The position numbers and the translations under genes are program-made. Below the pieces are notes generated by a model. That model was not told where the DNA came from and did no database searches. It saw nothing but the letters and a program-made list of their open reading frames with translations. A stretch of DNA of 12,391 nucleotides from a bacterium. GTDB lineage: Bacteria; UBA9089; CG2-30-40-21; SBAY01. The stretch spans positions 1 to 12,391 of the forward strand of contig JBFLYA010000118.1 in NCBI GenBank assembly GCA_040757115.1. Reading direction: 5' to 3'. Shown piece by piece: positions 113 through 12,391 of the stretch; position 1 is the stretch's first letter; each line of letters starts with the position of its first letter.

Positions 113-325
113 TTAGGGTCAAACCGTAAATGTGGAATGCACAATAATTCGGTGAGGCAGAGGAAAAGGAAAAGACAGCGAATCAAAGCTTTTGTCTAAC
201 CCTGCGTTGCAGTTGACGGCGGGGGACTGTGCCGTGGTCAGAGTTTTGTGGTCTCTCAAAGTTTTATCTTGCTATCAAACTTTTGTGGTAATCCTCCCCG
301 CAGCAGGTGAGCTCAATCGTTAGGC
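113..325 (+). repeat. 213-bp non-coding cassette unit, copy 1 (TTAGGG box + trailer + attC)
   Basis: This unit begins with TTAGGGTCAAACC, runs through a purine-rich stretch (GAGGCAGAGGAAAAGGAAAAGA) and ends in an attC site. Other copies are at 1126-1338, 2993-3205, 9148-9360, 9809-10021, 12037-12248 and (cut) 12355-12391. The complete copies are 213 bp except the one at 12037, which lacks one A. Between TT of the first core and G of the last it has the architecture of an ORF-less integron cassette of about 207 bp. Confidence 0.75.
194..325 (+). other. attC: attC-1 (A/B chimera)
   Basis: R'' is GTCTAAC (194-200) and R' is GTTAGGC (319-325); length 132 bp. The 5' half is the A type (GCAGTTGACGGCGGGG), but the 3' arm is the B type (CCCCGCAGCAGGTGAGC). 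The L-box part of the stem therefore pairs worse than in either pure family, and only the GCGGGG/CCCCGC block and the R boxes match well. It leads into the nucleotidyltransferase/HEPN cassette. Confidence 0.85.
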
Positions 326-348
326 AAAAACAACTTTGGAGAGTATCT

Positions 349-666
349 ATGATTTCTGAAAAAATAATTAAAAAAGCAATAGAACGATTGATAGAAGTAG
401 CAAATCCACAAAAGATATATCTATTTGGCTCTTATGCACGTGGTGATGCTCGAGAGCAATCTGATTTAGACCTTTTGGTCGTTGAACAAACGATAAAAAG
501 CCAACGAAAGGAAATGGTTTATCTCCATGATGCAATTCGTTCAATGTGTATTCCTGTAGACATTATACCTGTAAGCGAAGCTACTTTTAACGAATGGTCC
601 AATGTACCAGGTACTGTCATTCATAAAGCCAAAACTGAAGGACGATTATGCTATGAAAAATCGTAA
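349..666 (+). CDS. mntA: MNT-type nucleotidyltransferase antitoxin (MntA-like)
   Basis: A protein of 105 aa from ATG 349, preceded by GGAGAG at 338-343; a longer reading from GTG 307 lies inside attC and is unlikely. The nucleotidyltransferase signature GS-x10-DxD is present (GSYARGDAREQSDLDLLV, about residues 27-44), with the two Asp as metal ligands. Small MNT proteins are known partners of HEPN toxins, in characterised cases transferring AMP onto the toxin (type VII toxin-antitoxin). Its stop overlaps the HEPN start by 14 nt, implying translational coupling. It is the first gene of a cassette starting at attC-1. Function is inferred from motif and pairing. Confidence 0.85.
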   Translation: MISEKIIKKAIERLIEVANPQKIYLFGSYARGDAREQSDLDLLVVEQTIKSQRKEMVYLHDAIRSMCIPVDIIPVSEATFNEWSNVPGTVIHKAKTEGRLCYEKS

Positions 667-1048
667 ACTTGCAGAACGGTTTCTGAGTAAAGCAAATCAA
701 GATATGATTGTTATCGAGAAGTGGCGGCAAGACAAGGAGATTCCTGATGAGATTTTAGGCTTTCATGCTCAACAAGCGGCTGAGAAAATGCTTAAAGCGG
801 TTTTGGCCTATCAAGGGATCGAATTTCCATTTACTCATCGATTGGCTGACTTGATAGACTTAAGCAAAAAGCAAGGTATCGTTTTACCAGAGAGATTGGA
901 AGAGGTACGTTTTTTGACTCCTTTTGCTGTTAAGTTTCGTTATGACCTTTATTATGAAGAGGATAAAGAACCTATTGATTTTAAAGAAATATTCACCTTG
1001 CTTATCGAATTACGCAACTGGGTGAATACAATAATCTCTCAGGAGTGA
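653..1048 (+). CDS. hepT: HEPN-domain protein (HepT-like toxin partner)
   Basis: A protein of 131 aa; the start chosen is ATG 653, which overlaps the end of the nucleotidyltransferase gene, and an in-frame ATG at 602 would only add residues from inside that gene. It looks like an all-alpha HEPN protein of the PF05168 type: FHAQQAAEKMLKAVLAYQG in the second helix, FPFTHRLADL, then LTPFAVKFRYD. Partners in such pairs are often RNases using an RX4-6H motif. I do not find that motif here, so nuclease activity is uncertain and it could instead be a binding or regulatory HEPN. It is followed after 6 nt by a truncated attC. Confidence 0.8.
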   Translation: MKNRKLAERFLSKANQDMIVIEKWRQDKEIPDEILGFHAQQAAEKMLKAVLAYQGIEFPFTHRLADLIDLSKKQGIVLPERLEEVRFLTPFAVKFRYDLYYEEDKEPIDFKEIFTLLIELRNWVNTIISQE

Positions 1049-1054
1049 TAATTT

Positions 1055-1110
1055 GCCTAACGAATCGTTGCAGCGGACGGCGGGGGATTGTGCCGTGATT
1101 AAAAGTTTTG
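1055..1110 (+). other. attC: Truncated attC (5' half only)
   Basis: It starts with R'' GCCTAAC (1055-1061) and follows the family sequence through CGGACGGCGGGGG, TTGTGCCGTG and AAAGTTTTG. The 3' arm and R' box are missing, and the sequence runs via about 15 unrelated nt (ending AAGATA) into a 213-bp non-coding unit. It cannot fold as an attC alone. The MntA/HepT cassette could then only move together with the following unit. Confidence 0.75.
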
Positions 1111-1125
1111 AAACCGGGAAAGATA

Positions 1126-1338
1126 TTAGGGTCAAACCGTGAATGTGGAATGCACAATAATTCGGTGAGGCAGAGGAAAAGGAAAAGACAGCGAATCAGA
1201 GTTTTTGTCTAACCCTGCGTTGCAGTTGACGGCGGGGGACTGTGCCGTGGTCAGAGTTTTGTGGTCTCTCAAAGTTTTATCTTGCTATCAAACTTTTGTG
1301 GTAATTCTCCCCGCCGCACCTGAACTTTATCGTTAGAC
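1126..1338 (+). repeat. 213-bp non-coding cassette unit, copy 2
   Basis: A near-identical copy of the TTAGGG-to-attC unit, joined directly to the truncated attC behind the HEPN gene. There is no ORF with a ribosome binding site. Together with the truncated attC and the 5' region of the next cassette, this fills the gene-free stretch 1049-1423. Confidence 0.75.
1207..1338 (+). other. attC: attC-2 (A type)
   Basis: R'' GTCTAAC (1207-1213), R' GTTAGAC (1332-1338), 132 bp. The arms GTTGCAGTTGACGGCGGGG and CCCCGCCGCACCTGAAC pair along their length, apart from G-U wobble and two unpaired bases (G and A of the 5' arm), as expected for the folded single-stranded substrate of IntI. Confidence 0.9.
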
Positions 1339-1423
1339 ACTTGAGTTTTAAGATATTTCGGCTGTGCGATGTTATAAGGTTTGCTGATTAAAGGCAAATA
1401 TAATTTAAAAGGAGTATGTATAA

Positions 1424-1636
1424 ATGAAGATAAAAGAAAAAGCCATGAAGGAATTGAAGGCAATGACACCGTTAGAAATTATCACGATTTATGAGATAAT
1501 GCTTTCGTTAAAAATCAAAACAAAGAAGAAACTTCCAAATCATTCAAAAGCCTATATCAAAGTGAGAGAGGCATTAAGTAAATGCGACGGGTCGTTAAGC
1601 AATGACATACTTATGGAAAGAGAGGATAAAATTTGA
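1424..1636 (+). CDS. Small VapB-like antitoxin candidate
   Basis: A 70-aa, Lys-rich protein from ATG 1424, with AAAAGGAG about 7-8 nt upstream. I recognise no named DNA-binding fold. The antitoxin call rests on size, charge and position: it ends in ATTTGA, where its TGA overlaps the TTG start of the PIN-domain gene, a coupling typical of VapBC operons. The gene begins about 85 bp after attC-2, longer than in the other cassettes. Role as the toxin's neutralising partner is inference. Confidence 0.6.
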   Translation: MKIKEKAMKELKAMTPLEIITIYEIMLSLKIKTKKKLPNHSKAYIKVREALSKCDGSLSNDILMEREDKI

Positions 1637-2085
1637 AACTGTTCATTGATAGTTCCGCACTTGTTAAATTCTTTCATAAAGAAGAAGGCTCTCAGAGAGT
1701 TACGGAATTAATAGTTTCGGAAGACAATGAGATATGGATTTCCGAAATTGCCGGAGTTGAATTTCTCTCTGCGGTAACAAGAAGATTTAGGAATAAAGAA
1801 ATAGATGAGGAGAATTTGAATAATGCCATTTCGGGTTTTGAAGAACAGTTAAGCACTTTCAATGTAGAGCCTGTAGGACATGCGATAATTAAAGAAACTG
1901 AATCTTTAATCAAACAACATGGAAAGTCACAAGGACTTAGAACACTTGACGCACTACACCTCGGAACATTTAATCTGATTGCTGAAAAAGACTGGGTATT
2001 TGTAGCAGCAGACGAAACTCTCTGTAAAGCAGTTCACCAAATGGGATACAGTTTTATAAATCCTCTTGAAGATCAGAGACAATAA
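1633..2085 (+). CDS. vapC: PIN-domain toxin (VapC-like RNase)
   Basis: A 150-aa PIN-domain protein with the four acidic metal-binding positions: D6 (FIDSSALVKFF), E43 (EIAGVEFLSAV), D106 (LRTLDALHL) and D127 (VFVAADETL). Such toxins are Mg-dependent endoribonucleases acting on tRNA or rRNA. The start codon is TTG (1633), overlapping the antitoxin stop by 3 nt; I see no other good start before the conserved first strand. After the stop comes a diverged trailer (ATTAGGTTCAAACC at about 2115) and then attC-3. The target RNA cannot be told from the sequence. Confidence 0.88.
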   Translation: MKLFIDSSALVKFFHKEEGSQRVTELIVSEDNEIWISEIAGVEFLSAVTRRFRNKEIDEENLNNAISGFEEQLSTFNVEPVGHAIIKETESLIKQHGKSQGLRTLDALHLGTFNLIAEKDWVFVAADETLCKAVHQMGYSFINPLEDQRQ

Positions 2086-2193
2086 CAAGTTGAATACCAA
2101 GAGGAGGATAGATTAGGTTCAAACCTCGAAGATAGAATTTACAAAAAACCGAAGATTAAGAAAAGAAGAAAAAGACGGCGGAGCAAGTCTTTT

Positions 2194-2325
2194 ACCTAAC
2201 AAATCGTTGCAGCGGACGGCGGGGGACTGTGCCGTGGTCAGAGTTTTGTGGTCTCTCAAAGTTTTATCTTGCTATCAAACTTTTGTGGTAATCCTCCCCG
2301 CCGCACCTGAACTTTATCGTTAGCA
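2194..2325 (+). other. attC: attC-3 (A type)
   Basis: R'' ACCTAAC (2194-2200), R' GTTAGCA (2319-2325), 132 bp. The left arm reads AATCGTTGCAGCGGACGG rather than the CCCTGCGTTGCAGTTGACGG of the non-coding unit, so this appears to be the site belonging to the VapBC cassette. The gene-free stretch 2086-2356 consists of the trailer (a diverged version of the TTAGGG-box trailer) and this site. Confidence 0.9.
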
Positions 2326-2356
2326 TCAAACATTTTCAGAAGAGGTGAATTATACC

Positions 2357-2548
2357 ATGCGAAGAAAAGATTATATTCAACTTCAGAGAAAATACGGTGG
2401 TAATTTTATTGCCACTATGAATGACCAGATAGTTGCTGTAGCAAAAACTCAGAAAGAGTTAACCTATAAAATAACCGAAAAAAAATTAAAGAGAAAAGAT
2501 GTCATCTATGAATATATCGAACCGAAAGGAGCTATCTGTGTCTATTGA
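2357..2548 (+). CDS. DUF5678-like small protein
   Basis: A protein of 63 aa from ATG 2357, with AGAGGTG about 9 nt upstream; the GTG at 2345 is part of that ribosome binding site. The pattern DYIQLQRKYGGNFIAT, DQIVAVAKTQKEL, then IYEYIEPKGAICVY resembles the DUF5678 family, short proteins of unknown function often coded next to retropepsin-like proteases, as here. It overlaps the protease gene. The family match is from memory of the pattern and not certain. Confidence 0.65.
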   Translation: MRRKDYIQLQRKYGGNFIATMNDQIVAVAKTQKELTYKITEKKLKRKDVIYEYIEPKGAICVY

Positions 2549-2948
2549 ATTCCCGCTTAGAGAAAAAAGAACACATTTAGGAGTTATCCCTGACCCTAAA
2601 ATAGATATCCTGATATTGGAAAAATCTGGCTATGCTCCTTACAGATTTCTCCTCGATACAGGTGCTGACTGTACAATGATGCCTTCCTCATCAGCGGAAG
2701 ACTTAGGCATTGATTTAGAGCAGTGTCCTATTGATCGTTCTTATGGTATTGAAGGAGATGGTGTAAAAGTTTATCTTAGTCCGATAACAGTTAAAATCGG
2801 AAGTCATAACCTAACTATTAAATGCCTCTTCTCAGAGAAGGAAAATACTCCTTATTTACTGGGACGGATGGATATTTTCTCTCATTTTAATATCACCTTT
2901 GATAATGAACAGAAGAAACTAATTCTTACACATATTCCTACTGATTAG
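2538..2948 (+). CDS. Retropepsin-like (clan AA) aspartic protease
   Basis: A protein of 136 aa if it begins at GTG 2538, which has AAAGGAG 6 nt upstream and overlaps the preceding stop by 11 nt; ATG 2499 would give 149 aa but has no such site. The core is FLLDTGADCTMM, the DTG active-site loop of single-domain aspartic proteases that act as dimers, with a later hydrophobic LLGRMDIF motif typical of the family. No signal peptide or membrane segment, so probably cytosolic. With the DUF5678-like protein it makes a two-gene cassette. Substrate unknown; an antitoxin- or maturation-like pairing is only a guess. Confidence 0.82.
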   Translation: MSIEFPLREKRTHLGVIPDPKIDILILEKSGYAPYRFLLDTGADCTMMPSSSAEDLGIDLEQCPIDRSYGIEGDGVKVYLSPITVKIGSHNLTIKCLFSEKENTPYLLGRMDIFSHFNITFDNEQKKLILTHIPTD

Positions 2949-2967
2949 CCCTACTGTGGAGAAAGAT

Positions 2968-3001
2968 ATTATTAGTTAGGGTCAATTATTAGTTAGGGTC
3001 A
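2968..3001 (+). repeat. 17-bp tandem duplication of the TTAGGG box
   Basis: ATTATTAGTTAGGGTCA occurs twice in direct tandem (2968-2984, 2985-3001) where the protease cassette meets the next 213-bp non-coding unit. Each copy holds a GTTAGGG, identical to an attC R' core, so the duplication may reflect repeated recombination or slippage at a core site. Confidence 0.7.
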
Positions 3002-3205
3002 AACCGTGAATGTGGAATGCACAATAATTCGGTGAGGCAGAGGAAAAGGAAAAGACAGCGAATCAAAGCTTTTGTCTAACCCTGCGTTGCAGTTGACGGC
3101 GGGGGACTGTGCCGTGGTCAGAGTTTTGTGGTCTCTCAAAGTTTTATCTTGCTATCAAACTTTTGTGGTAATTCTCCCCGCCGCACCTGAACTTTATCGT
3201 TAGCA
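2993..3205 (+). repeat. 213-bp non-coding cassette unit, copy 3
   Basis: Same unit as at 113-325, complete, following the retropepsin gene with only a 17-bp tandem repeat between. It fills the gene-free stretch 2949-3251 together with the leader of the GH13 gene. It carries attC-4. Confidence 0.75.
3074..3205 (+). other. attC: attC-4 (A type), last attC of the left array
   Basis: R'' GTCTAAC (3074-3080), R' GTTAGCA (3199-3205), 132 bp, with well-paired A-type arms. The GH13 gene starts 46 bp after the core, the usual spacing of a cassette gene. No further complete attC is seen until 7836. Confidence 0.9.
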
Positions 3206-3251
3206 TATAATACAAGCATTGAATAACACGACATAAGGAGGAATGATTTAT

Positions 3252-6167
3252 ATGCCTAAAATTAGAATTCATTATAACAATGAGTATGCCTATTCTCAGC
3301 CAGAATTATATGTTTGGGCAGATAAGATGAAACCCATAAAACAGAAGCCGGATGGAAATGATTCCTTTGGACCTTATTTTGATTTTGATCTTATTGGTTT
3401 CCATGATAATCTCCATTTTAAGTTCAAAGATGGAGAAGTGTATGAACCAAATAGCGACAATCGTCTCCTAAAAATCGATAGCCCCAATAATATCTGGACA
3501 TTTGCTGGAAGTAATGGGGTATTCTATGAAGACCAGATAAAATTAGATATAACCACCCTCAAAATTCACCTGAGAACAGCTAATAAATATGTCAATAGTA
3601 AATTATATATTTGGTCCTTGGCTGGCAACAAAATAGGTGATATTGAAAAATCAGGCAATGATGATTTTGGTCCATATTGGGAAGTCCCATTAAAGACGGA
3701 TAAAGAACGGACTTCTATATGTTTTAAATTTCACAAAGATGATTTATGGGAACCTGACAGGGCTAATAAGTTATGGTTATGTGTTTATGGGAATGAGGTT
3801 TGGACAAAAAGTGAAACTAATCTGGTCATTAGTAAAAAACCTGAGATGCTCAACATCAAGGTAAAATTTAAAACTAAAAAACTATCCCCAATAATGCATA
3901 TCTGGCAGCAGGATGATTTTATTAAAGATATTCCATCCAGATCTAAAGATAAATTTGGGTTTATCTATACGGTGTCGCTATATACCGGTTTACCGTATAA
4001 TTTTATGTTTTATGAGAATGGGAACTGGGAGATGGAAAGTTGTATAAAGACATTTACCCCAGAAAAAGATAACAGCTATATCTGGGCATTTGATGGCGTC
4101 ACCCAGTTATTTAACCAAAAGCCATTAAAAAACAAGATACTTACGGTCTCTATGCAAAGAGAACCTAAGAGTCTATTGGATGATTCGACGAGGATGCATA
4201 TCTGGGCTGGGAATGCGATTAAAGAGGATATTGCTCCTCGTTATGTATCGACTAACGGTCGGCTTGTTTATAAATTGAAGGTCTATTCAGGACTACCCTA
4301 CAGAATGATGTTTCATAAAGGAGATAATTGGGAGAGAAGCAGTGAAAGAAGTGTTGTCTTAGAGAAAAGTAAAGCGGTCTGGGTTATTGAAAATAATCTT
4401 TCTATACTTAACTCACCGCCTCCTTATAACTTGTTCCAAAATCCTGACTTCTGGATAAAAAGACCCGGGGTATATAAAGAGAACGGGTTCTACCGATTTG
4501 TCCTACATGCCCCTCATGCTGGTCGGGTAAGAGTCATTGGTGAGTTTACAGACTGGGAGAAAAATGCCTATGATCTGAGACTTACCGAGGATAAACGCTA
4601 CTGGTGGGTATCAATTCCGGCTAATAAGATAAGGCATGGGCAGAAATACAAATATTTACTCAATGATGATTGGTATTCTCAGGATCCAGCGGCAAGTTGG
4701 GTTGAGAATTCGTCATATTCAGCCTGTTCCCAGATTCTTGTTTCTGATAATTATAAATGGAATGATAGTCAGTGGCGAACACCTGGTTTTGAATATCTAA
4801 TCATCTATCAATGTCATATCCGAAGATTTACTAATCGTAATGGGAATCAGCGGACATATTCTCAATTGATTGAAGAAATAAAGGAAAATGCCAAAAACAA
4901 TTACCTGAAAGACCTGGGGATTACCGTCATTGAGTTATTACCTATCCAGGAGTTTCCTATGGATAAATCATGGGGATACAATCCATCTTTCTTCTATGCC
5001 CCGGAGTCGGCCTATGGTAAGCCTGATGAATTAAAAGAATTTGTTGATATTTGCCATCAGAATGGGATAGCTGTTATCCTGGATGTCGTCTTTAATCATG
5101 TTGGAGGGGATTGTGCCTTGTGGAATTTAGCTCAGGAGACCTATTTTGATGGTGATACTAAATGGGGGGCAATGATTAATTACGATAATGAAATAACCCA
5201 GCAATTTTTTACCCAAAATGTCTTATATTTAAGAGAAGAATACCACATCGATGGATTCAGATTTGATTGCACGGATGCAATTATCCATTCTACGGCTAAG
5301 AATGATTTGATAAAGAAACCAGGCAGTGATGGTGGCGGGAATTTCTTGCATAAGATAAGAAAAGCTGTCAAAGGTGTGGATAATAATATCATCTTGATTG
5401 CGGAACAATTACCTAATGATTTCAGCTTGACTAATTACGGTGGTCCAATGGATACCCAATGGTTTGACGACTTCCATGATATCCTGAAAAAGTCACTTTG
5501 TGGTGTTCATAATATGGATGACCTGGCACAGGCGTTTACCCTGGGTTATAAGCGTTGTAATGAGTGGAATGATGTGGTCAATTATTCTGAGAGTCATGAT
5601 GAAGTAGGGAATACAGATGATAGAATCGCTCGCGTTGGGGCAGATTTTAAAGGATACAATATGTGCAAAATAGCGGCTACGGCTACATTAATGGCCAGAG
5701 GGATCCCCATGTTGTTTATGGGACAGGAAAGTGGTGAATCTAAGCAGTTTAAGGTAGATAACGATGATGTGCTTGACCTGGATGATTATGAAAAGGACAT
5801 AAACAAAACTAAGATTCGAGAATGGACAAAGGCAATGATTGCCTTGCGTAAAAATAATCCTTTTATCCAAAATGGGGCAGATTTGACCATAAAATATACC
5901 TATAACCAGGATAAAATTATTGCCTTTACCAGAGGTGGAGATAAATATTTTGTCGTTATGAACTTTGGAGGTTGGCATGGCTATCGTTATCTGGGTGAGA
6001 TGAATTTGCCTTATGGCGACTATAAAGAGATTTATAACTCTACCTGGCCATATTATGCCTTTGACTTTGAAGATGAACATACCAATGGTGGTTATAATGC
6101 TTGCTTAAATGCTAATCATAGTTTAAATATCCCTGATTATGGTGTAGTTATACTTGAAAAACGGTAA
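3252..6167 (+). CDS. Multidomain GH13 alpha-glucan-active enzyme (alpha-amylase/branching-enzyme superfamily)
   Basis: A protein of 971 aa from ATG 3252, 10 nt after AAGGAGG; ATG 3243 sits too close to that site. About residues 1-400 form four tandem modules of roughly 95 aa, each with LYVW/LYIW/MHIW, a central FGPYF/FGPYW/FGFIY/RLVYK block and a KDDLWEP/GDNWER-like end, resembling starch-binding pullulanase-associated modules. A CBM48-like beta domain follows (about 410-500), then the GH13 barrel with DVVFNHVG (D611), GFRFDCTD (nucleophile D672), ILIAEQ (acid/base E718) and SESHDE (D783), and a C-terminal beta domain. There is no signal peptide, so it probably acts on internal glycogen or maltodextrin. 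The subfamily (amylase, pullulanase-like, branching) is unresolved. It starts like a cassette gene behind attC-4 but has no recognisable attC after it. Confidence 0.9.
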   Translation: MPKIRIHYNNEYAYSQPELYVWADKMKPIKQKPDGNDSFGPYFDFDLIGFHDNLHFKFKDGEVYEPNSDNRLLKIDSPNNIWTFAGSNGVFYEDQIKLDITTLKIHLRTANKYVNSKLYIWSLAGNKIGDIEKSGNDDFGPYWEVPLKTDKERTSICFKFHKDDLWEPDRANKLWLCVYGNEVWTKSETNLVISKKPEMLNIKVKFKTKKLSPIMHIWQQDDFIKDIPSRSKDKFGFIYTVSLYTGLPYNFMFYENGNWEMESCIKTFTPEKDNSYIWAFDGVTQLFNQKPLKNKILTVSMQREPKSLLDDSTRMHIWAGNAIKEDIAPRYVSTNGRLVYKLKVYSGLPYRMMFHKGDNWERSSERSVVLEKSKAVWVIENNLSILNSPPPYNLFQNPDFWIKRPGVYKENGFYRFVLHAPHAGRVRVIGEFTDWEKNAYDLRLTEDKRYWWVSIPANKIRHGQKYKYLLNDDWYSQDPAASWVENSSYSACSQILVSDNYKWNDSQWRTPGFEYLIIYQCHIRRFTNRNGNQRTYSQLIEEIKENAKNNYLKDLGITVIELLPIQEFPMDKSWGYNPSFFYAPESAYGKPDELKEFVDICHQNGIAVILDVVFNHVGGDCALWNLAQETYFDGDTKWGAMINYDNEITQQFFTQNVLYLREEYHIDGFRFDCTDAIIHSTAKNDLIKKPGSDGGGNFLHKIRKAVKGVDNNIILIAEQLPNDFSLTNYGGPMDTQWFDDFHDILKKSLCGVHNMDDLAQAFTLGYKRCNEWNDVVNYSESHDEVGNTDDRIARVGADFKGYNMCKIAATATLMARGIPMLFMGQESGESKQFKVDNDDVLDLDDYEKDINKTKIREWTKAMIALRKNNPFIQNGADLTIKYTYNQDKIIAFTRGGDKYFVVMNFGGWHGYRYLGEMNLPYGDYKEIYNSTWPYYAFDFEDEHTNGGYNACLNANHSLNIPDYGVVILEKR

Positions 6168-6328
6168 CCATTCAGGATGTAATGAAGGGAAAAGGGGAAA
6201 TAGGGGGGAATAGGAAATTTAGCCACCTGGGCGATTAGACTAATTCATCGCAGAGACGCAAAGGAAAAATAAATGGAAAATAGGAAATGAAAAATGGGAA
6301 ATTTTAGTAATTCGCAAGACTCATTACC
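6168..6328. other. Junction region with possible cassette remnant
   Basis: About 160 bp without a gene, rich in GGGAAATAGG-type purine repeats. At 6230-6262 the text GGGCGATTAGACTAAT, then CGCAGAGACGCAAAGG, resembles the attC end plus hairpin cassette (TCGTTAGACTAAT, then CACAGAGACACAAAG) at 12240-12265. It may be the decayed end of the GH13 cassette's attC and a fragment of the hairpin cassette. The same region replaces the lost 3' end of the integrase gene. Confidence 0.4.
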
Positions 6329-6700
6329 TTTTTCATCGCAGTGGTGTCGTCGTATCTTACCACTGCGAGGATCGCTGGATATTCGGCTGGATGGAAAAAC
6401 ATATTGCCATCCCCATTCCTTAGAGGCATTAGGATATTTCCGTTCTAAGGCAAAAGGCAGATAGACCTCTCCCAACCCCTTTTGAAGATCCTCTTCGTGC
6501 AATATCTTAACTCGGCGTAAATGTTCTAACAATGCTGGTTTTAATGTTTCAGGCAGCATCGTTGAACGGTCTTTCCTCCCTTTTCCCTCACGCACAATGA
6601 CTTGATTTCGTTCAAAGTCAATATCTTTAACCCGCAAACGAATACATTCCATCAACCGTAGTCCACAGCCGTAAATAAGTTTTGCCATCAATCCATATAG

Positions 6701-6966
6701 CGGTTATTAACTGGAAGTTTACATAGGATAATACCCATAAATAAGGTATGAGAATAATCGTTCCGTTAGGAACATAATATTGGTAGAAATAGATAGACAA
6801 ATCAATCAGTTCCGTAGGAACGATATATTGGTAGAAAATTTATGGAAAGCCATTTACCGATATATTGTCCCTCTGGGACATTATTTGTATGATATTTATT
6901 TCTACCGATATGTTGTCCCTCTGGGACATTATTTGTATTTCTAAGTAAAGTTTTGAATAATAACTG
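6701..6966. mobile_element. 266-bp MITE-like element inserted in intI
   Basis: The ends are 22-bp imperfect inverted repeats (6701-6722, CGGTTATTAACTGGAAGTTTAC, and the complement of 6945-6966, CAGTTATTATTCAAAACTTTAC; 15 of 22 match). Flanks CCATATAG (6693-6700) and CCATAAG (6967-6973) look like a target duplication of about 7-8 bp with one change. Inside are four short palindromes in two orientations: GTTCCGTTAGGAAC (6760-6773), GTTCCGTAGGAAC (6809-6821) and GTCCCTCTGGGAC twice (6867-6879, 6915-6927), each linked to a TTGGTAGAAA or TTTCTACCGA tag. There is no transposase, so movement would need one in trans. Confidence 0.75.
6760..6927. repeat. Four REP-like palindromes inside the MITE-like element
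   Basis: Two left units (palindrome then ATTGGTAGAAA) face two right units (TTTCTACCGATAT or a close form, then palindrome), so the whole is a large inverted array. This could form strong secondary structure in either transcript. Confidence 0.65.
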
Positions 6967-7421
6967 CCATAAGTCCCTGACATAGCTGACAGAACACGAC
7001 TAACTTCTGCTTTTGTCAAAACTGTGGGTAACTTTTCAGGCTTCTTAGCTCGCTGGATATGCCCAAAATCTCCCAGTTCAATCTGAAGAATATGTTTATA
7101 AAGAAAGACGATAGCATTGAGCGCCTGATTTTGGGTGCTTGCCGAAACCTTCTGATTGGTTGCCAGGTAAGAAAGATACTGAGAGATTTCCTTTTCTCCC
7201 ATATATTTTGGATGCTTTTTGTTATGGAAGAGAACAAATCGTTTTATCCATTCAATATAACTTTGCTCAGTACGAATAGAATAGTGCTTTTTACGCATCA
7301 CTTCACTGGTCTGCTCAAGAAGATTCACCTCATTAGACCTCCTTTCAGCATTTTTCGGTTTCAATATTACATGCATTTTAACTATAAAACACTATTTATC
7401 AGCTAATTGCAAGAAAAAAAT

Positions 7422-7609
7422 TTATAATGCAGTAAAATAAAAACCGCTAATAGGCAGTATAATATCAGGATGTTATTTTTCAGTATTTTCTAATTTTGAT
7501 ATTAAAATTTTTCTTGACAGAATATTCTATTTATGCTACTCTATAAATAGCCTAACTTATAATGCAGTAATATAAAACTGCCAATAGGCAGTATAATCTA
7601 AGGTTAGAC
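7422..7609 (+). other. attI: Putative attI site with two direct repeats
   Basis: This lies between intI and the first right-hand cassette, where attI belongs. The insertion core is GTTAGAC (7603-7609). Two direct repeats of about 46 bp (7422-7467 and 7557-7602; shared TTATAATGCAGTAA and TAGGCAGTATAAT) flank about 90 bp and could be integrase accessory-binding sites, like DR1/DR2 of attI1. The second contains a perfect ACTGCC-AATA-GGCAGT palindrome (7577-7592). A GCCTAAC at 7550-7556 faces the core, so 7550-7609 also looks like a short, 60-bp attC-type palindrome. Confidence 0.6.
7514..7542 (+). promoter_or_regulatory. Candidate cassette promoter Pc
   Basis: TTGACA (7514-7519) with a 17-nt spacer to TACTCT (7537-7542), and TG one base before it as in an extended -10. 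It points into the right array from between the attI repeats. The -35 is perfect and the -10 is weak. GAATATTC (7520-7527) within the spacer is a perfect palindrome and could be an operator. Confidence 0.5.
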
Positions 7610-7961
7610 ATGCCAGACAGACAAGAAGGAGAAGGAGGAGAGTTATTCCTGTTGGAAGTTTCGGTGAGAATATTTGCTCCTTAGCGGACTATACCAGGCC
7701 TGCGAGATTGATGCTTTTCGGAAAGAGTTGCTTATCCCTCAGAAGCAACAGGGGGAGGCTAAGAGGGTCTACTGAAAAGTGATAGTTAGGTAAGATAGAG
7801 GAAGCAAGAAGAAAGAGACGGCAAAGTGCAGCTTTTTCTAACCATTCGCTGCACCTGACTGCGGGGGGCTGTGCCGTAATTAGAGTTTTGTGGTATCTTA
7901 AGCTTTTATCTTGTTTACAAAGTTTGGTGGTAATCCGCCCCGCAGCAGGTGAGCTCTATCG
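7604..7961 (+). repeat. First cassette of right array: non-coding, with a gene remnant (copy 1)
   Basis: This holds no intact gene from attI to the first attC, which accounts for most of the gene-free stretch 7329-8019. It shares about 230 bp with 11564-11806. In one frame both copies can be read as EYLLLSGLYQACEIDAFRK, then ELLIP, without a start, so a decayed gene end is possible, but later stops and frame differences (stop after ELLIP in copy 2) show that it is not coding now. A TTAGGT trailer (7785-7842) precedes attC-5. Confidence 0.55.
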
Positions 7962-7967
7962 TTAGCT
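7836..7967 (+). other. attC: attC-5 (B type)
   Basis: R'' TTCTAAC (7836-7842), R' GTTAGCT (7961-7967), 132 bp. The arms GCTGCACCTGACTGCGGGG and CCCCGCAGCAGGTGAGC pair perfectly but for an unpaired G and A, the same two positions as in the A family although the stem sequence differs. Confidence 0.9.
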
Positions 7968-8019
7968 TTCGAACCGAAACTCTAAACAATCGCGAAAGAA
8001 GCGAAGAATGGAGGAACCA

Positions 8020-8526
8020 ATGACTCAAAATGAAGAAAGAAAAGGAGTGCTTTCTCAAATCATTGTCGCCGTCGTTGTCACTTTACTAGTTGGCGGTACT
8101 GCTCCATGGTGGTGGGACATAATCGCTCCGGAAAAATCTCAGGAAAAACCTGATGGCATTCCAACTTGGGATGGGCAGATTCAGGAAAAACCTGATGGCA
8201 TTCCAACTCGGGATGGGCAGATTCAGGTTCGGTGTACTGCCAGTCCCCATTCAATTCCCGCTGGCGGACAGGTCGGAATCACGGTTCTGGCCTTCACAGA
8301 GCAGAGTTCTCCGGTCAGTAGCGCAAATGTTCGTATTGAAGCAGGCGGAGGATGGTTCTCCAGAAGCGGAACCACTATCGAGGTCGGACAGACGGACGCT
8401 GGTGGTGTATTCATGACCCAGTGGAGGTCTCCGAACCCAGCCGCGGGGGCATATGGAATGAACGTAACAGTGACCAAAGATGGTTTTACCGAGGGCAGGG
8501 ATGAGTGCAATATCCCCATACAATAG
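8020..8526 (+). CDS. Membrane-anchored protein with Ig-like domain
   Basis: A protein of 168 aa from ATG 8020, with GGAGG 5 nt upstream; ATG 8008 overlaps that site. One hydrophobic segment near the N-terminus (SQIIVAVVVTLLVGG, then APWWW) would anchor it with the rest outside the cytoplasm. A 14-aa unit (QEKPDGIPTWDGQI) is repeated in tandem, followed by an Ig-like/invasin-type beta domain (VRCTASPHSIPAGGQVGITV to VTKDGFTEG) with two Cys near its ends that may form a disulphide. Its base composition looks richer in G+C than the neighbouring cassettes, suggesting a different origin. Function unknown. Confidence 0.75.
   Translation: MTQNEERKGVLSQIIVAVVVTLLVGGTAPWWWDIIAPEKSQEKPDGIPTWDGQIQEKPDGIPTRDGQIQVRCTASPHSIPAGGQVGITVLAFTEQSSPVSSANVRIEAGGGWFSRSGTTIEVGQTDAGGVFMTQWRSPNPAAGAYGMNVTVTKDGFTEGRDECNIPIQ
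8140..8223 (+). repeat. 42-bp in-frame tandem duplication
   Basis: Two copies (8140-8181, 8182-8223) differ by one base (TGG/CGG, Trp/Arg). They lie in the linker between the membrane segment and the Ig-like domain, so copy number would change the spacer length without breaking the frame. Confidence 0.85.
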
Positions 8527-8546
8527 AAGAAGCTACATACGGGATC

Positions 8547-8678
8547 ATCTAACCATTCGCTGCACCTGACTGCGGGGGGCTGTGCCGTAATTAGAGTTTT
8601 GTGGTATCTCAAGCTTTTATCTTGTTTACAAAGTTTGGTGGTAATCCGCCCCGCAGCAGGTGAGCTTGATCGTTAGCA
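8547..8678 (+). other. attC: attC-6 (B type)
   Basis: R'' ATCTAAC (8547-8553), R' GTTAGCA (8672-8678), 132 bp, almost identical to attC-5. It follows the Ig-like protein gene by 20 bp without the TTAGGG-type trailer seen before many other sites. Confidence 0.9.
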
Positions 8679-8713
8679 CCAGATTGAACTAACCACCAGA
8701 AGGAGGAAGAGAC

Positions 8714-8995
8714 ATGGGAAAATGTCCGAAATGTGAAAATCTTATTACAACCGTCAACATTGAAGACGTTACTGTAAATCATCTTTTTCAGCCTGGTTGG
8801 AAAGGAATTTCATATCTTTGCCCATTTTGTAATTCTGTTCTGAGTGTACAGATTGATCCGATTGCGGTACGCACTGACATTTCAGACCATGTAGATCAGG
8901 CAGTTGCTCCTGTTTCGCAGGAGGTTGTTACCTTGCGTAGTCAAGTCACTCGGTTGGAGCAACTTTTAGCGCAGTTGTTGCAGCCACGGCGCTAG
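8714..8995 (+). CDS. Small zinc-ribbon protein with coiled coil
   Basis: A protein of 93 aa from ATG 8714, preceded by AAGGAGGAAGA. Two CxxC knuckles (CPKC at 4-7, CPFC at about 36-39) make a probable zinc ribbon. The C-terminal third, VSQEVVTLRSQVTRLEQLLAQ, has heptad-like Leu/Val spacing and suggests an oligomerising coiled coil. No catalytic motif is visible, and I do not recognise the family. Nucleic-acid or protein binding is possible. It is a single-gene cassette behind attC-6. Confidence 0.7.
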   Translation: MGKCPKCENLITTVNIEDVTVNHLFQPGWKGISYLCPFCNSVLSVQIDPIAVRTDISDHVDQAVAPVSQEVVTLRSQVTRLEQLLAQLLQPRR

Positions 8996-9073
8996 GGTTG
9001 CGTGGGTTCAGATGTCTGTCTGGTTCAGGAGGAAGTAAGTTAGGGTCGGAACCTGATTATTAGGAAATAGAGG

Positions 9074-9098
9074 AAATAGGGGGACATTTCCCCTATTT
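9074..9098 (+). terminator. Perfect hairpin in cassette trailer
   Basis: AAATAGGGG and CCCCTATTT form a 9-bp perfect stem with a 7-nt loop, after the zinc-ribbon gene. Only a weak T run follows, so Rho-independent termination is uncertain, but it could stabilise the 3' end of the message. Confidence 0.4.
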
Positions 9099-9102
9099 AT
9101 TG

Positions 9103-9139
9103 ACCTAACAAATTGTTGCAGCGGACGGCGGGGGCTGCG
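9103..9139 (+). other. attC: Truncated attC (5' quarter)
   Basis: R'' ACCTAAC (9103-9109), then AAATTGTTGCAGCGGACGG and the G run. The rest is replaced by CTGCGGGGATATT and a 213-bp non-coding unit. It is the second case of a gene cassette whose own attC is cut and followed by this unit. Confidence 0.7.
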
Positions 9140-9147
9140 GGGATATT

Positions 9148-9360
9148 TTAGGGGCAAACCGTGAATGTGGAATGCACAATAATTCGGTGAGGCAGAGGAA
9201 AAGGAAAAGACAGCGAATCAAAGCTTTTGTCTAACCCTGCGTTGCAGTTGACGGCGGGGGACTGTGCCGTGGTCAGAGTTTTGTGGTCTCTCAAAGTTTT
9301 ATCTTGCTATCAAACTTTTGTGGTAATTCTCCCCGCCGCACCTGAACTTTATCGTTAGCC
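9148..9360 (+). repeat. 213-bp non-coding cassette unit, copy 4
   Basis: A complete unit starting TTAGGGGCAAACC, joined to the truncated attC. With the trailer and hairpin before it, this fills the gene-free stretch 8996-9397. Confidence 0.75.
9229..9360 (+). other. attC: attC-7 (A type)
   Basis: R'' GTCTAAC (9229-9235), R' GTTAGCC (9354-9360), 132 bp, well-paired A-type arms. It leads into the second retropepsin-like gene. Confidence 0.9.
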
Positions 9361-9397
9361 ACTCAACAAATAAAACTTGATATAGGAGGGAGAAATT

Positions 9398-9787
9398 ATG
9401 GGACGAATTGTAGCACAAGTTGAAATATCGAATCCACAAGATGAGGGGAAGAATTTGACATGCAGTATATTTGTTGATACTGGTGCTGCTGGATTAATTC
9501 TTCCAATGGCATGGAAAGAACGCTTGGGGAAATTTGCAAGCAGTGAAGTTGTAGATCTTGTGTTAGCGAACAATGAAGTAGTTAAAGGTGAAGCGTGTGG
9601 ACCTGCAGGAATTCAAATAGAAGGATTCCGAAAAGTCTTTAACGAAGTAACCTTTATGGAGATGGAAAAAGCAGAAAATGGTGAATACGAACCCCTTTTA
9701 GGATATATAATTCTGGAACAAACACAAGTAGCCGTTGATATGCTTGGACATCGTCTTGTACCTGTGAAATATATCGATTGCAGATAA
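9398..9787 (+). CDS. Retropepsin-like (clan AA) aspartic protease
   Basis: A protein of 129 aa from ATG 9398, with AGGAGG 8 nt upstream. The active-site loop is FVDTGAAGLILP; a later EPLLGYIILEQTQVAVD matches the second conserved hydrophobic block of single-domain aspartic proteases. There is no signal or membrane segment. It is distinct from the protease at 2538-2948 (DTGAAG against DTGADC, and no DUF5678-like partner) and stands alone in its cassette. Substrate unknown. Confidence 0.82.
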   Translation: MGRIVAQVEISNPQDEGKNLTCSIFVDTGAAGLILPMAWKERLGKFASSEVVDLVLANNEVVKGEACGPAGIQIEGFRKVFNEVTFMEMEKAENGEYEPLLGYIILEQTQVAVDMLGHRLVPVKYIDCR

Positions 9788-9808
9788 ATTAAACAATAAG
9801 ATTTATCG

Positions 9809-10021
9809 TTAGGGTCAAACCGTGAATGTGGAATGCACAATAATTCGGTGAGGCAGAGGAAAAGGAAAAGACAGCGAATCAAAGCTTTTGTCTAACCCTG
9901 CGTTGCAGTTGACGGCGGGGGACTGTGCCGTGGTCAGAGTTTTGTGGTCTCTCAAAGTTTTATCTTGCTATCAAACTTTTGTGGTAATCCTCCCCGCCGC
10001 ACCTGAACTTTATCGTTAGGC
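9809..10021 (+). repeat. 213-bp non-coding cassette unit, copy 5
   Basis: A complete unit. Here it is preceded by TTTATCG, so the full GTTAGGG core (9808-9814) of a lost attC survives just 21 bp after the protease stop. This gives the exact left border expected for an integrated cassette. It fills 9788-10068 together with the next gene's leader. Confidence 0.8.
9890..10021 (+). other. attC: attC-8 (A type)
   Basis: R'' GTCTAAC (9890-9896), R' GTTAGGC (10015-10021), 132 bp, A-type arms. It leads into the DUF104/PIN pair. Confidence 0.9.
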
Positions 10022-10068
10022 AATGATGCTTTATAGTTTTATGGCATACTAATAAGTGGAGGAAGAAA

Positions 10069-10284
10069 ATGGTTAAAACATTAGAAGCAGTATTTGATGG
10101 CAAAGTATTGCATCCTGAGGGACCGATAGATTTACAGCCAAACATACGCGTCCGCATAACAATCCAGACCATCACTACACGGAAAACAAAAGCGCGTTCA
10201 TTCCTTTGTACTGCTCGATCACTTAATTTGGAAGGCCCTTCTGACTGGTCAACACGGATAGAAGAATACCTATATGGAAGGTAA
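10069..10284 (+). CDS. vapB: DUF104-like antitoxin (VapB family)
   Basis: A protein of 71 aa from ATG 10069, with GGAGGA 5 nt upstream. The start MVKTLEAVFDGKVLHPEGPIDL, then RVRITIQT, matches the DUF104/AF2212 type of antitoxin, a small beta-barrel protein that usually precedes a PIN-domain toxin. The toxin gene follows within 4 nt. The C-terminal part (SDWSTRIEEYLYGR) is the likely toxin-wrapping segment by analogy with other VapB proteins. Confidence 0.8.
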   Translation: MVKTLEAVFDGKVLHPEGPIDLQPNIRVRITIQTITTRKTKARSFLCTARSLNLEGPSDWSTRIEEYLYGR

Positions 10285-10288
10285 AGTG

Positions 10289-10711
10289 ATGCCAATGAGT
10301 AAAGTTTTTCTTGATACCGCATATGCTATTGCACTATCTTCGCCCAACGATGAGCAACACAAAAAAGCCGTGCAGATTGCAGAACAATTGGAAGCGGATG
10401 CAACTAAGTTGGTTACAACGCGAGCTGTCATATTGGAAATTGGAAATGCATTAGCTAAGTTACGGTATCGTAAAGCTGCAGTCGAATTATTGGACTCACT
10501 CGAACAAGACCCAAATGTTGAAATCATCCCAATTTCGGAAGAATTGTATAAGCGTGCATTCCAGTTTTATCGTGAGCGACCAGATAAGGAATGGGGAATT
10601 ACAGATTGTATATCTTTTGTTATTATGCAGGAGCAAAGGTTGACAGCGGCACTGACAACAGATGAACACTTCCAACAGGCTGGCTTTCAAGCACTCCTAA
10701 TGGATAATTAG
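10289..10711 (+). CDS. vapC: PIN-domain toxin (VapC-like RNase)
   Basis: A protein of 140 aa from ATG 10289, 7 nt after GGAAGG and 4 nt after the antitoxin stop; ATG 10274 and 10295 are alternatives. The PIN acidic set is complete: D9 (VFLDTAYAIAL), E50 (VILEIGNAL), D106 (GITDCISFVIM) and D125 (ALTTDEHF). The expected role is an Mg-dependent RNase held in check by the DUF104-like partner. Its stop codon TAG lies in ATTAGGGTCAAACC, the trailer box found behind other cassette genes. It differs clearly from the PIN protein at 1633. Confidence 0.88.
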   Translation: MPMSKVFLDTAYAIALSSPNDEQHKKAVQIAEQLEADATKLVTTRAVILEIGNALAKLRYRKAAVELLDSLEQDPNVEIIPISEELYKRAFQFYRERPDKEWGITDCISFVIMQEQRLTAALTTDEHFQQAGFQALLMDN

Positions 10712-10802
10712 GGTCAAACCTTGAATATTGAATTTACTTTTTGCATAACTTATTGATAACAAAAGAGATAAGAAAAGAAAAAGATGGCAAAGCATAGTTT
10801 TT

Positions 10803-10934
10803 ACCTAACAAATCGTTGCAGTTGACGGCGGGGGACTGTGCCGTGGTCAGAGTTTTGTGGTCTCTCAAAGCTTTATCTTACTATCAAACTTTTATGGTAA
10901 TCCTCCCCGCCGCACCTGAACTTTATCGTTAGGT
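10803..10934 (+). other. attC: attC-9 (A type)
   Basis: R'' ACCTAAC (10803-10809), R' GTTAGGT (10928-10934), 132 bp. The left flank is AATCG as in attC-3, with the GTTGACGG arm of the non-coding units. A diverged TTAGGG trailer (10708-10802) precedes it, so 10712-10963 holds trailer, attC and leader. Confidence 0.9.
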
Positions 10935-10962
10935 GGATTGAAGATAAGTGGATTGAAGATAA
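10933..10962 (+). repeat. 15-bp tandem repeat at cassette start
   Basis: GTGGATTGAAGATAA occurs twice in direct tandem between the attC-9 core and the acetyltransferase ATG. No strong ribosome binding site is seen, and the repeat may have displaced or replaced it. Confidence 0.8.
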
Positions 10963-10963
10963 C

Positions 10964-11512
10964 ATGATAAGTGGGTTTAAGGTTTCGCTTCGAGCAGCAA
11001 AGGAATCTGATCGTCGGCAGGTGTATAAATGGTTAGCTTGCTCTGACTTGACGCCATCAATGATGGGTCCTCCAGACTTTCCCGACCATCCGGTTCCAAC
11101 CTGGGAAGAGTTTTGTTCAGATTACAAAGCACATTACTTTGATGACTCTGCCATATATTCTGGCAGGTGCTTCATTATCACGGTTGCACATGAAGGCGTT
11201 GGTGTGGTAAGCTATAATCAGATTAACCAGAACAGAAGAGAAACCGAATTAGACATCTGGCTTCGCTCAGAATCTGATTGTGGAAAGGGATACGGCTCTG
11301 ATGCTTTGAAAACGCTATGTGATTATCTACATACCACTTACGGCATTGAAAGCTTTATCCTCAGGCCGTCTGCAAGAAACCAACGAGCTATTGCCGCATA
11401 TCAACGAGCGGGTTTTAAATTATTGTCTCTTTCGTCTGGTAAACAAAGAGCCGAATATGGTCCAGGAGACTACGTTGATACAGTGGTACTTTGCAAGCAT
11501 ATGTCCACCTAA
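10964..11512 (+). CDS. GNAT-family N-acetyltransferase
   Basis: A protein of 182 aa from ATG 10964. The acetyl-CoA pyrophosphate loop is CGKGYGSDAL (106-115, of the Q/RxxGxG/A type), and RPSARNQRAIAAYQRAGF (134-151) is the usual GNAT motif B. The N-terminus (VSLRAAKESDRRQVYKWL) resembles RimJ/RimL- and AAC(6')-like enzymes, so acetylation of a protein N-terminus, small amine or aminoglycoside is possible. The sequence does not decide between these. The stop TAA lies inside R'' of the next attC (ACCTAAC), so the gene fills its cassette completely. The ribosome binding site is weak. Confidence 0.85.
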   Translation: MISGFKVSLRAAKESDRRQVYKWLACSDLTPSMMGPPDFPDHPVPTWEEFCSDYKAHYFDDSAIYSGRCFIITVAHEGVGVVSYNQINQNRRETELDIWLRSESDCGKGYGSDALKTLCDYLHTTYGIESFILRPSARNQRAIAAYQRAGFKLLSLSSGKQRAEYGPGDYVDTVVLCKHMST

Positions 11513-11569
11513 CCAATCGCTGCACCTGACCACGGCTATCGCTCGGGCAGGTGAGCTCAATCGTTAGAC
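11507..11569 (+). other. attC: attC-10, short 63-bp form (B-type arms)
   Basis: R'' ACCTAAC (11507-11513), R' GTTAGAC (11563-11569). The arms GCTGCACCTGACC and GGGCAGGTGAGC pair with the same unpaired G and A, closed by a short loop. Only half the length of the other sites, like the 59-base elements of mobile integrons, so this cassette probably came from a different source. Confidence 0.88.
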
Positions 11570-11923
11570 AGGCCGGGGGCAGACAAGAAGAAGAAGAAGG
11601 AGGAGTTATTCCTGTTGGAAGTTTCAGGGAGAATATTTGCTCCTTAGTGGCCTATACCAGGCCTGCGAGATTGATGCTTTTCGCAAAGAGTTGCTTATCC
11701 CTTAAAAGCAACAGGGGGGAGTCTAAGAGGGCTTACTGAAAAGTGATAGTTAGGTAAGATAGAGGAAGCAAAAAGAAAGAGACGGCGAAGTGCAGCTTTT
11801 TCTAACCATTCGCTGCACCTGACTGCGGGGGGCTGTGCCGTTTTCAAAGTTTTGTGATTTATCAAGCTTTTATCTTGCTTACAAGGTTAGTGGTAATTCA
11901 CCCCGCAGCAGGTGAGCTCAATC
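11564..11923 (+). repeat. Non-coding cassette with gene remnant, copy 2
   Basis: It shares about 230 bp plus attC with the first right-hand cassette (7604-7961), with scattered substitutions and small indels. A 62-codon reading frame from 11551 starts inside attC, has no ribosome binding site and is not kept in the other copy, so I do not call it a gene. A TTAGGT trailer begins at 11750. Confidence 0.6.
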
Positions 11924-11930
11924 GTTAGGC
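11800..11930 (+). other. attC: attC-11 (B type)
   Basis: R'' TTCTAAC (11800-11806), R' GTTAGGC (11924-11930), 131 bp. B-type arms are intact; the central loop differs from attC-5 and attC-6 at many positions, so it has evolved separately for some time. Confidence 0.88.
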
Positions 11931-12036
11931 TAATAAAAATAATCACACAGAGACACAAAGTCACAAAGGAATTGAATAAAACAATAAACCTTTGTGTTCT
12001 TTGTGGCTTTGTGTGAGAAAATAAAAAGGAGATATT
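11931..12036 (+). repeat. Non-coding hairpin cassette, copy 2
   Basis: Same CACAGAG/CTTTGTG inverted repeat as at 1-112, directly behind attC-11 and followed by the non-coding unit at 12037. Together they form an ORF-less cassette of about 318 bp. The stretch 11513-12391 contains only attC sites and non-coding cassettes. Confidence 0.7.
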
Positions 12037-12248
12037 TTAGGGTCAACCGTGAATGTGGAATGCACAATAATTCGGTGAGGCAGAGGAAAAGGAAAAGACA
12101 GCGAATCAGAGCTTTTGTCTAACCCTGCGTTGCAGTTGACGGCGGGGGACTGTGCCGTGGTCAGAGTTTTGTGGTCTCTCAAAGTTTTATCTTGCTATCA
12201 AACTTTTGTGGTAATTCTTCCCGCCGCACCTGAACTTTATCGTTAGAC
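12037..12248 (+). repeat. Non-coding cassette unit, copy 6 (212 bp)
   Basis: Complete copy lacking one A in the TCAAACC box. It ends in attC-12. Confidence 0.75.
12117..12248 (+). other. attC: attC-12 (A type)
   Basis: R'' GTCTAAC (12117-12123), R' GTTAGAC (12242-12248), 132 bp, A-type arms. Confidence 0.9.
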
Positions 12249-12391
12249 TAATAAAAATAATCATACAGAGACACAAAGTCACAAAGGAATTGAATAAAAC
12301 AATAAACCTTTGTGTTCTTTGTGGCTTTGTGTGAGAAAATAAAAAGGAGATATTTTAGGGTCAAACCGTGAATGTGGAATGCACAATAATT
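12249..12391 (+). repeat. Hairpin cassette copy 3 and start of non-coding unit copy 7, cut by window end
   Basis: A tandem repeat of the preceding cassette: hairpin block to about 12354, then TTAGGG at 12355-12360 and the first bases of the unit. It is near-identical to 1-149 of the window, differing for example at CATACAGAG/CACACAGAG and GTGAATG/GTAAATG. Confidence 0.7.

Follow-up and report, generated by a model that had tools for sequence, protein, structure and literature searches.

We analysed a 12,391-nt window, the whole of contig JBFLYA010000118.1 (C118) from a bacterial genome of the lineage UBA9089; CG2-30-40-21; SBAY01 (GCA_040757115.1; 4.3 Mb, 462 contigs), and found that a 211-nt unit that recurs in it is a sharp-edged, near-identical module ending in an integron recombination site (attC) and joined behind dozens of unrelated genes. 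The host genome carries ~125 attC sites, as detected with a covariance model (16 attC sites as input, 35 pairs), which indicates a large, fragmented chromosomal integron. The searches of the window and the genomes confirmed the seven copies, all on the + strand, that had been listed in a preliminary description of this DNA: 113–323, 1126–1336, 2993–3203, 9148–9358, 9809–10019, 12037–12246 (start at 12036 in one search) and a last copy from 12355 that is cut by the contig end. Read strictly from TTAGGG to the CGTTAG of the R' end, the unit measures 211 nt, or 210 nt in the copy at 12037; the figure of exactly 213 bp given for five copies in the preliminary description took in two bases of the next cassette.

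The full copies in the window are 96.7–100% identical to the copy at 9809. The unit gave 42 matches in the host genome (best E ~1e-107) and 45 in the separately assembled genome of a congener (~1e-103), and we counted about 50 copies in the host and about 21 in the sole other genome of the genus, about 75 in total. Public genome contigs, searched for an exact pattern, gave no match. Median attC identity was 96% among unit copies, compared with 73% for the remaining long attC sites among themselves and 75% when unit and non-unit sites were paired, and the copies are thus not as diverged as the attC sites of unrelated cassettes. On the left, similarity ends at the same point, within five nucleotides, in more than 60 of 75 copies; on the right, it ends at the GTTA cassette core in the copies read. 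Variation was too low to show linkage between left-edge and internal variants of the units, and the internal sites are unlinked. These results support the earlier proposal that a single unit has multiplied behind unrelated genes and acts like a spreading element.

The unit consists of an 81-nt leader on the left and a 130-nt attC on the right. With copy 5 as an example, a head of ~27 nt resembling a repetitive extragenic palindromic (REP) sequence (9809–9835) is followed by ~54 nt of purine-rich leader (to 9889) and then by the attC (9890–10019). Judged by its R'' motif GTCTAAC (RYYYAAC), its R' motif CGTTAG (GTTRRRY) and its foldable inner arms, this last part is an attC of the integron kind. 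The 3' part of the leader, AAGACAGCGAATCAAAGCTTTT, contains the pattern AAGAAAAAGACGGCRAAGTG-AGCTTTT common to many attC sites of the host. The constant left edge is formed by the repeat-like head GGGAGATATTAGGGTC (also written GGGAGATATTAGGGTCAAACC... and GGAGATAT), which takes the form TTAGGGTC or TTGGGGTC. The sequence with which the leader opens, TTAGGGTCAAACCGTGAATGTGGAATG (~27 nt), corresponds to one arm of a ~64-bp palindrome, ATTRGGGTCARACCKTGAATG...CATTCAAGGTYTGACCCYAAT. Directly left of the head, five of the six window copies other than 9809 carry GATATT or GATATTA and the sixth, at 2993, has a partly duplicated GATATTATTAGTTAGGGTCAATTATTAG; copy 9809 follows TTTATCG and falls outside this pattern, which had been described for six of the seven copies.

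The palindrome is dispersed across all four genomes of the family, with 0–1 matches per strand for a reversed control pattern. One Y1_Tnp gene (L124) is preceded, at a distance of ~50 nt, by a related head, GGGTCAGACCTCGAA, and a second one (L118) has a copy of the palindrome nearby; no such repeat was found near the Y1_Tnp genes at five of the six loci checked by script. Membership of the head in a system of REP sequences and REP-associated tyrosine transposases (RAYT) appears plausible but is unproven. Of 91 other long attC sites from the two genomes, 13 also have a related head 42–101 nt upstream (three in the downstream control), and the sister genus holds single examples of a head and attC composite (L130 and L143), which together indicate that the composite predates the recent amplification of the 211-nt unit. 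Partial duplications of flank plus head mark the left edge of 7 of 39 attC-linked heads and of 8 of 47 other heads, the latter set including two hairpin-cassette copies near contig ends, and these similar duplications point to the same slippage or joining process in both groups. The attC sites themselves are mosaics: in copy 1, for example, the 3' end of the attC (CAGCAGGTGAGCTCAATCGTTAG) comes from another attC type. In an empty-site comparison of two genomic palindromes with the congener, the flanks were rearranged. The preliminary description overlooked two diverged relatives of the unit on the + strand, one (84%) at 2113–2323 behind a PIN-domain gene, with the REP-like head TTAGGTTCAAACCTCGAA, and one at 10708–10932, with a different leader, an attC at 10803–10932 and the REP-like head TTAGGGTCAAACCTTGAATATTG joined to a PIN gene at the stop codon.

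About a third of the unit copies (24) sit in 318-bp gene-less cassettes composed of a 106-bp hairpin and the unit. Wherever the upstream site was recovered, an intact attC ends 106–108 bp before these hairpin-linked units. The only gene-less unit copies in the window are those at 113, 12037 and 12355. One such cassette occupies 11925–12246 (+) with copy 6 as its unit; an intact attC (11800–11928) lies directly upstream, and its hairpin part has a predicted RNA fold of -35.5 kcal/mol. A second cassette follows in tandem at 12243–12391 (+), where the contig end cuts it within copy 7, and the contig starts inside a further hairpin part (CACACAGAGACACAAAG...CTTTGTGTTCTTTGTGGCTTTGTGTG; 1–112, +) that is 99% identical to 12243–12354. 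As a 318-bp unit, the stand-alone gene-less cassette therefore exists in 24 copies. Most of the 211–213-nt units are not such cassettes, because their left end is not a core site. The preliminary description, which saw each copy as a gene-less cassette placed behind gene cassettes and bounded by a core tail on the left and an attC end on the right, was correct about the right end. At the left end most copies have no complete attC directly upstream, so that this end is not an integrase crossover; they end gene-bearing cassettes.

The non-hairpin copies are preceded by unique DNA, typically the 3'-terminal part of a gene, and the unit starts within 100 nt past the stop of an open reading frame (ORF) in about 28 of 43 informative copies, a count based on mechanically called ORFs. 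Most of these copies have no intact attC between gene and unit, so that the gene's cassette has the unit as its own 3' end, as at 9809 and at 2993, where the unit stands behind an aspartyl-protease-like gene and the flank and head are partly duplicated. At 1126 and 9148, the unit lies within an attC that is truncated. The left half of the attC of the MNT/HEPN cassette (1055–1113, +) is 96% identical to the attC at L024:3804 and lacks the last 75 bases; GAAACCGGGAAAGATA comes next and then the unit. The left half at 9103–9140 (+) is missing the last ~95 bases. Beyond the window, the units at L011:2466, L059:4460 and L101:123 likewise follow attC sites without a 3' part (remnants at L011:2429, L059:4366 and L101:1). 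At all these remnants the upstream attC has been lost in part or whole, as in fused cassettes, and the unit works like the end of such a cassette. A search for attC halves recovered at least seven remnants of left halves, and in most of these a repeat-like head, that of the unit or a different one, comes immediately after; the only right half without its left partner belongs to a site that a contig end interrupts. Two remnants are followed by other heads (L052, GGGTCACATCTTGA; L010, GGGGACGCACACAATTA), indicating that the process extends beyond this unit.

Three pairs of loci show the same gene with and without the unit. One gene is present at L100 (G000:C3), with an intact attC at its end, and as a 98% identical copy at L059 (G000:C39), where the unit comes after a different attC, interrupted in the right arm. 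At L097 (G000), GCGAAAAG is continued by AGGAATAG, whereas at L043 (G001) it is continued by TATTAGTAGGG...TATTATTAGGGTC and the unit; similarly, CATCCCAAA is continued by TGGAATGATA at L020 (G000) and by GGAGATATTTTACGGTC and the unit at L055 (G001). A few left-truncated copies are joined at other points (L053:16568, L022:230 and L022:6701).

We favour, as a serious possibility rather than a probable one, a reading in which the integrase spreads gene-less unit cassettes and illegitimate joining at the repeat-like head then fuses upstream genes to the unit. The unit would be a common 3' module of cassettes, kept and copied within the arrays by the integron integrase, and part of this spread would take the form of the 318-bp gene-less hairpin cassettes. 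Repeated many times, illegitimate joining with the head as breakpoint would fuse the unit to upstream genes and delete the intervening DNA, which would be some of the 3' flank or, where an older attC was present, its 3' half; hairpin stalling may fix the breakpoint. The gene would thereby acquire a new attC and remain, or become, a mobile cassette, and some of the genes may formerly have been non-cassette genes. Several observations weigh against this reading. The sequence GGGAGATAT before the head is largely module-specific and is absent from the ~20 genomic repeat copies read, a pattern that would follow equally well from deletion and from a ~222-bp element moving as a block, with a left end of its own. 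The hairpin remnants predicted by deletion of 318-bp cassettes were not found, and many joins carry no trace of an attC, which leaves the earlier cassette status of those genes unproven.

Such movement as a block would be expected under the main alternative, in which the module is a non-autonomous REP/RAYT element (HUH Y1 transposase) that has a REP arm as its left end and inserts behind genes with its attC, creating cassettes. The identity of the head with a palindrome arm, the two palindrome-related sequences near Y1_Tnp genes, the like frequency of left-edge partial duplications in units and genomic copies, and the module-specific GGGAGATAT are in keeping with this possibility; we regard it as unlikely, given that the right edge is an integrase core rather than a REP-like end, that the interrupted attC sites have no orphan right halves and that most of the Y1_Tnp loci checked lack the repeat. 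It is likewise doubtful that the unit serves specifically to make cassettes, as a REP-headed attC module that attaches itself behind ordinary genes and turns them into mobile cassettes; if it were, cassette genesis would run through a repeat transposase or repeat-guided joining, not group II introns. Homologous or illegitimate recombination between repeats located downstream of chromosomal genes and a cassette's repeat arm could also join a gene to an attC. The repeats are dispersed in all four genomes, and the attC mosaics and unlinked internal variants imply that exchange among copies is common, but the homology spans just ~20–27 nt, the flank GGGAGATAT is not shared by the genomic repeats read, and outside the arrays no gene was found with a full repeat at the matching place, so that we consider this route quite unlikely.

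According to a further alternative, the integrase inserts a gene-less cassette behind gene cassettes and selection keeps it there as a promoter, terminator or spare attC. The 318-bp version is truly gene-less in its 24 copies, and promoters are known in gene-less cassettes (PMC11014356); however, most other copies lack an intact upstream attC and are therefore no separate cassettes. The promoter, terminator or small RNA proposed in the preliminary description did not appear either: a promoter and terminator scan of the unit gave nothing, and an Rfam search of the window found no RNA. Promoters in gene-less cassettes are often not predictable in silico (PMC11014356), so the unit may still carry one. 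Selection for a promoter or RNA found no support here, and we judge this alternative improbable. An assembly or binning artefact is hardly credible: several contigs do end within unit copies, as is typical of repeats in short-read assemblies, but two separately assembled genomes carry the unit with diverse flanks, which excludes misassembly of a single copy, and one unit junction is identical in both, with 99.2% identity in the upstream DNA.

Chromosomal integrons have homogeneous attC families of the Vibrio cholerae repeat (VCR) type, ~130 nt long and very alike within one host. The long attC of the unit resembles these in its ~130 nt and its uniformity in one host, but the similarity continues for another 81 nt upstream and then stops abruptly, and no more than roughly one third to one half of the sites are of this family. 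In fused gene cassettes whose first attC is partly lost (PMC4670013), the upstream attC is likewise truncated or lost, and gene and next cassette move via the second attC; those fusions are rare and gene-to-gene, whereas here dozens of joins lead to a gene-less module with a constant breakpoint at a repeat-like head. ORF-less superintegron cassettes (PMC11014356, PMC6557892) share with the 318-bp hairpin cassette an attC and the absence of a gene. The present cassette differs in having no predicted promoter, in its near-identical unit in ~24 copies and in that its module also ends gene cassettes. The palindromes resemble REP sequences with their RAYT/TnpA-REP transposases (PMC8266576) in being dispersed outside genes, with one related head beside a Y1_Tnp gene, but the unit has one arm only, joined to an attC.

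In the proposed group IIC-attC intron model (reviewed in PMC7923331), as here, an attC is joined behind an arbitrary gene; here, however, no group II intron was seen. A role for such introns was considered through three reverse-transcriptase hits in the two genomes and rejected. No tie to the units emerged from the two hits inspected, of which one gave no ORF and the other looks by eye like a defence-type reverse transcriptase. The literature calls the way in which genes acquire their attC largely unknown (PMC5371416) and an outstanding question (PMC8618304). With its before-and-after pairs and truncated older sites, the unit offers a natural system for following attC acquisition and replacement, and it ties integron arrays to the dispersed palindromic repeats of the host.

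The + strand cassette genes of the window encode an MNT nucleotidyltransferase, a HEPN protein, two PIN proteins, an aspartyl-protease-like protein and a GNAT protein. On the - strand, a broken integron integrase gene (6245–7376) is read in two frames that match positions 1–126 and 116–240 of the 315 of TIGR02249; the final ~75 model positions are absent. An insertion at about 6700–6950, bearing the high-copy repeat CCGATATATTGTCCCTCTGGGACATTATTTGTAT, breaks this gene. Several other integrase genes of the host genome are broken too, and just one is intact. The intact gene on G000:C39 matches TIGR02249 with 368.6 bits against a cut-off of 265. The intact integrase (L065:1471-2853, P0001) has an N-terminal extension of ~130 residues that aligns full-length in many relatives from Deltaproteobacteria, anammox bacteria and Nitrospirae; relatives of the integrase come from metagenome-assembled genomes of Deltaproteobacteria, Brocadia/Scalindua and Nitrospirae.

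Further repeats were noted in and around the arrays. A second gene-less cassette family (AGACAAGAAGGAG...) has several copies, among them 7603–7970 and 11570–11928, and occurs in the congener as well (L041, L050). A ~230-bp miniature inverted-repeat transposable element (MITE; GTAAGCGTTCAG...CTGAACGCTTAC) lies within the leader at L055:8865-9140 and 10656-10980, one copy being flanked by a duplicated AAGACAGCG; matches on G001:C97 that had been read as the left part alone are explained by a MITE that interrupts the leader. A palindrome copy is directly adjoined by a minisatellite (L124:1280-1520, - strand) built of GGAACCATGAAGGGTCG units. Two unrelated-looking cassettes in the window (2499–2948 and 9398–9787) encode short proteins with retropepsin-like DTGA motifs, of which only that at 2499–2948 reaches Pfam (Asp_protease_2), and a cassette gene of no recognised family contains an in-frame tandem duplication of 42 bp (8139–8222).

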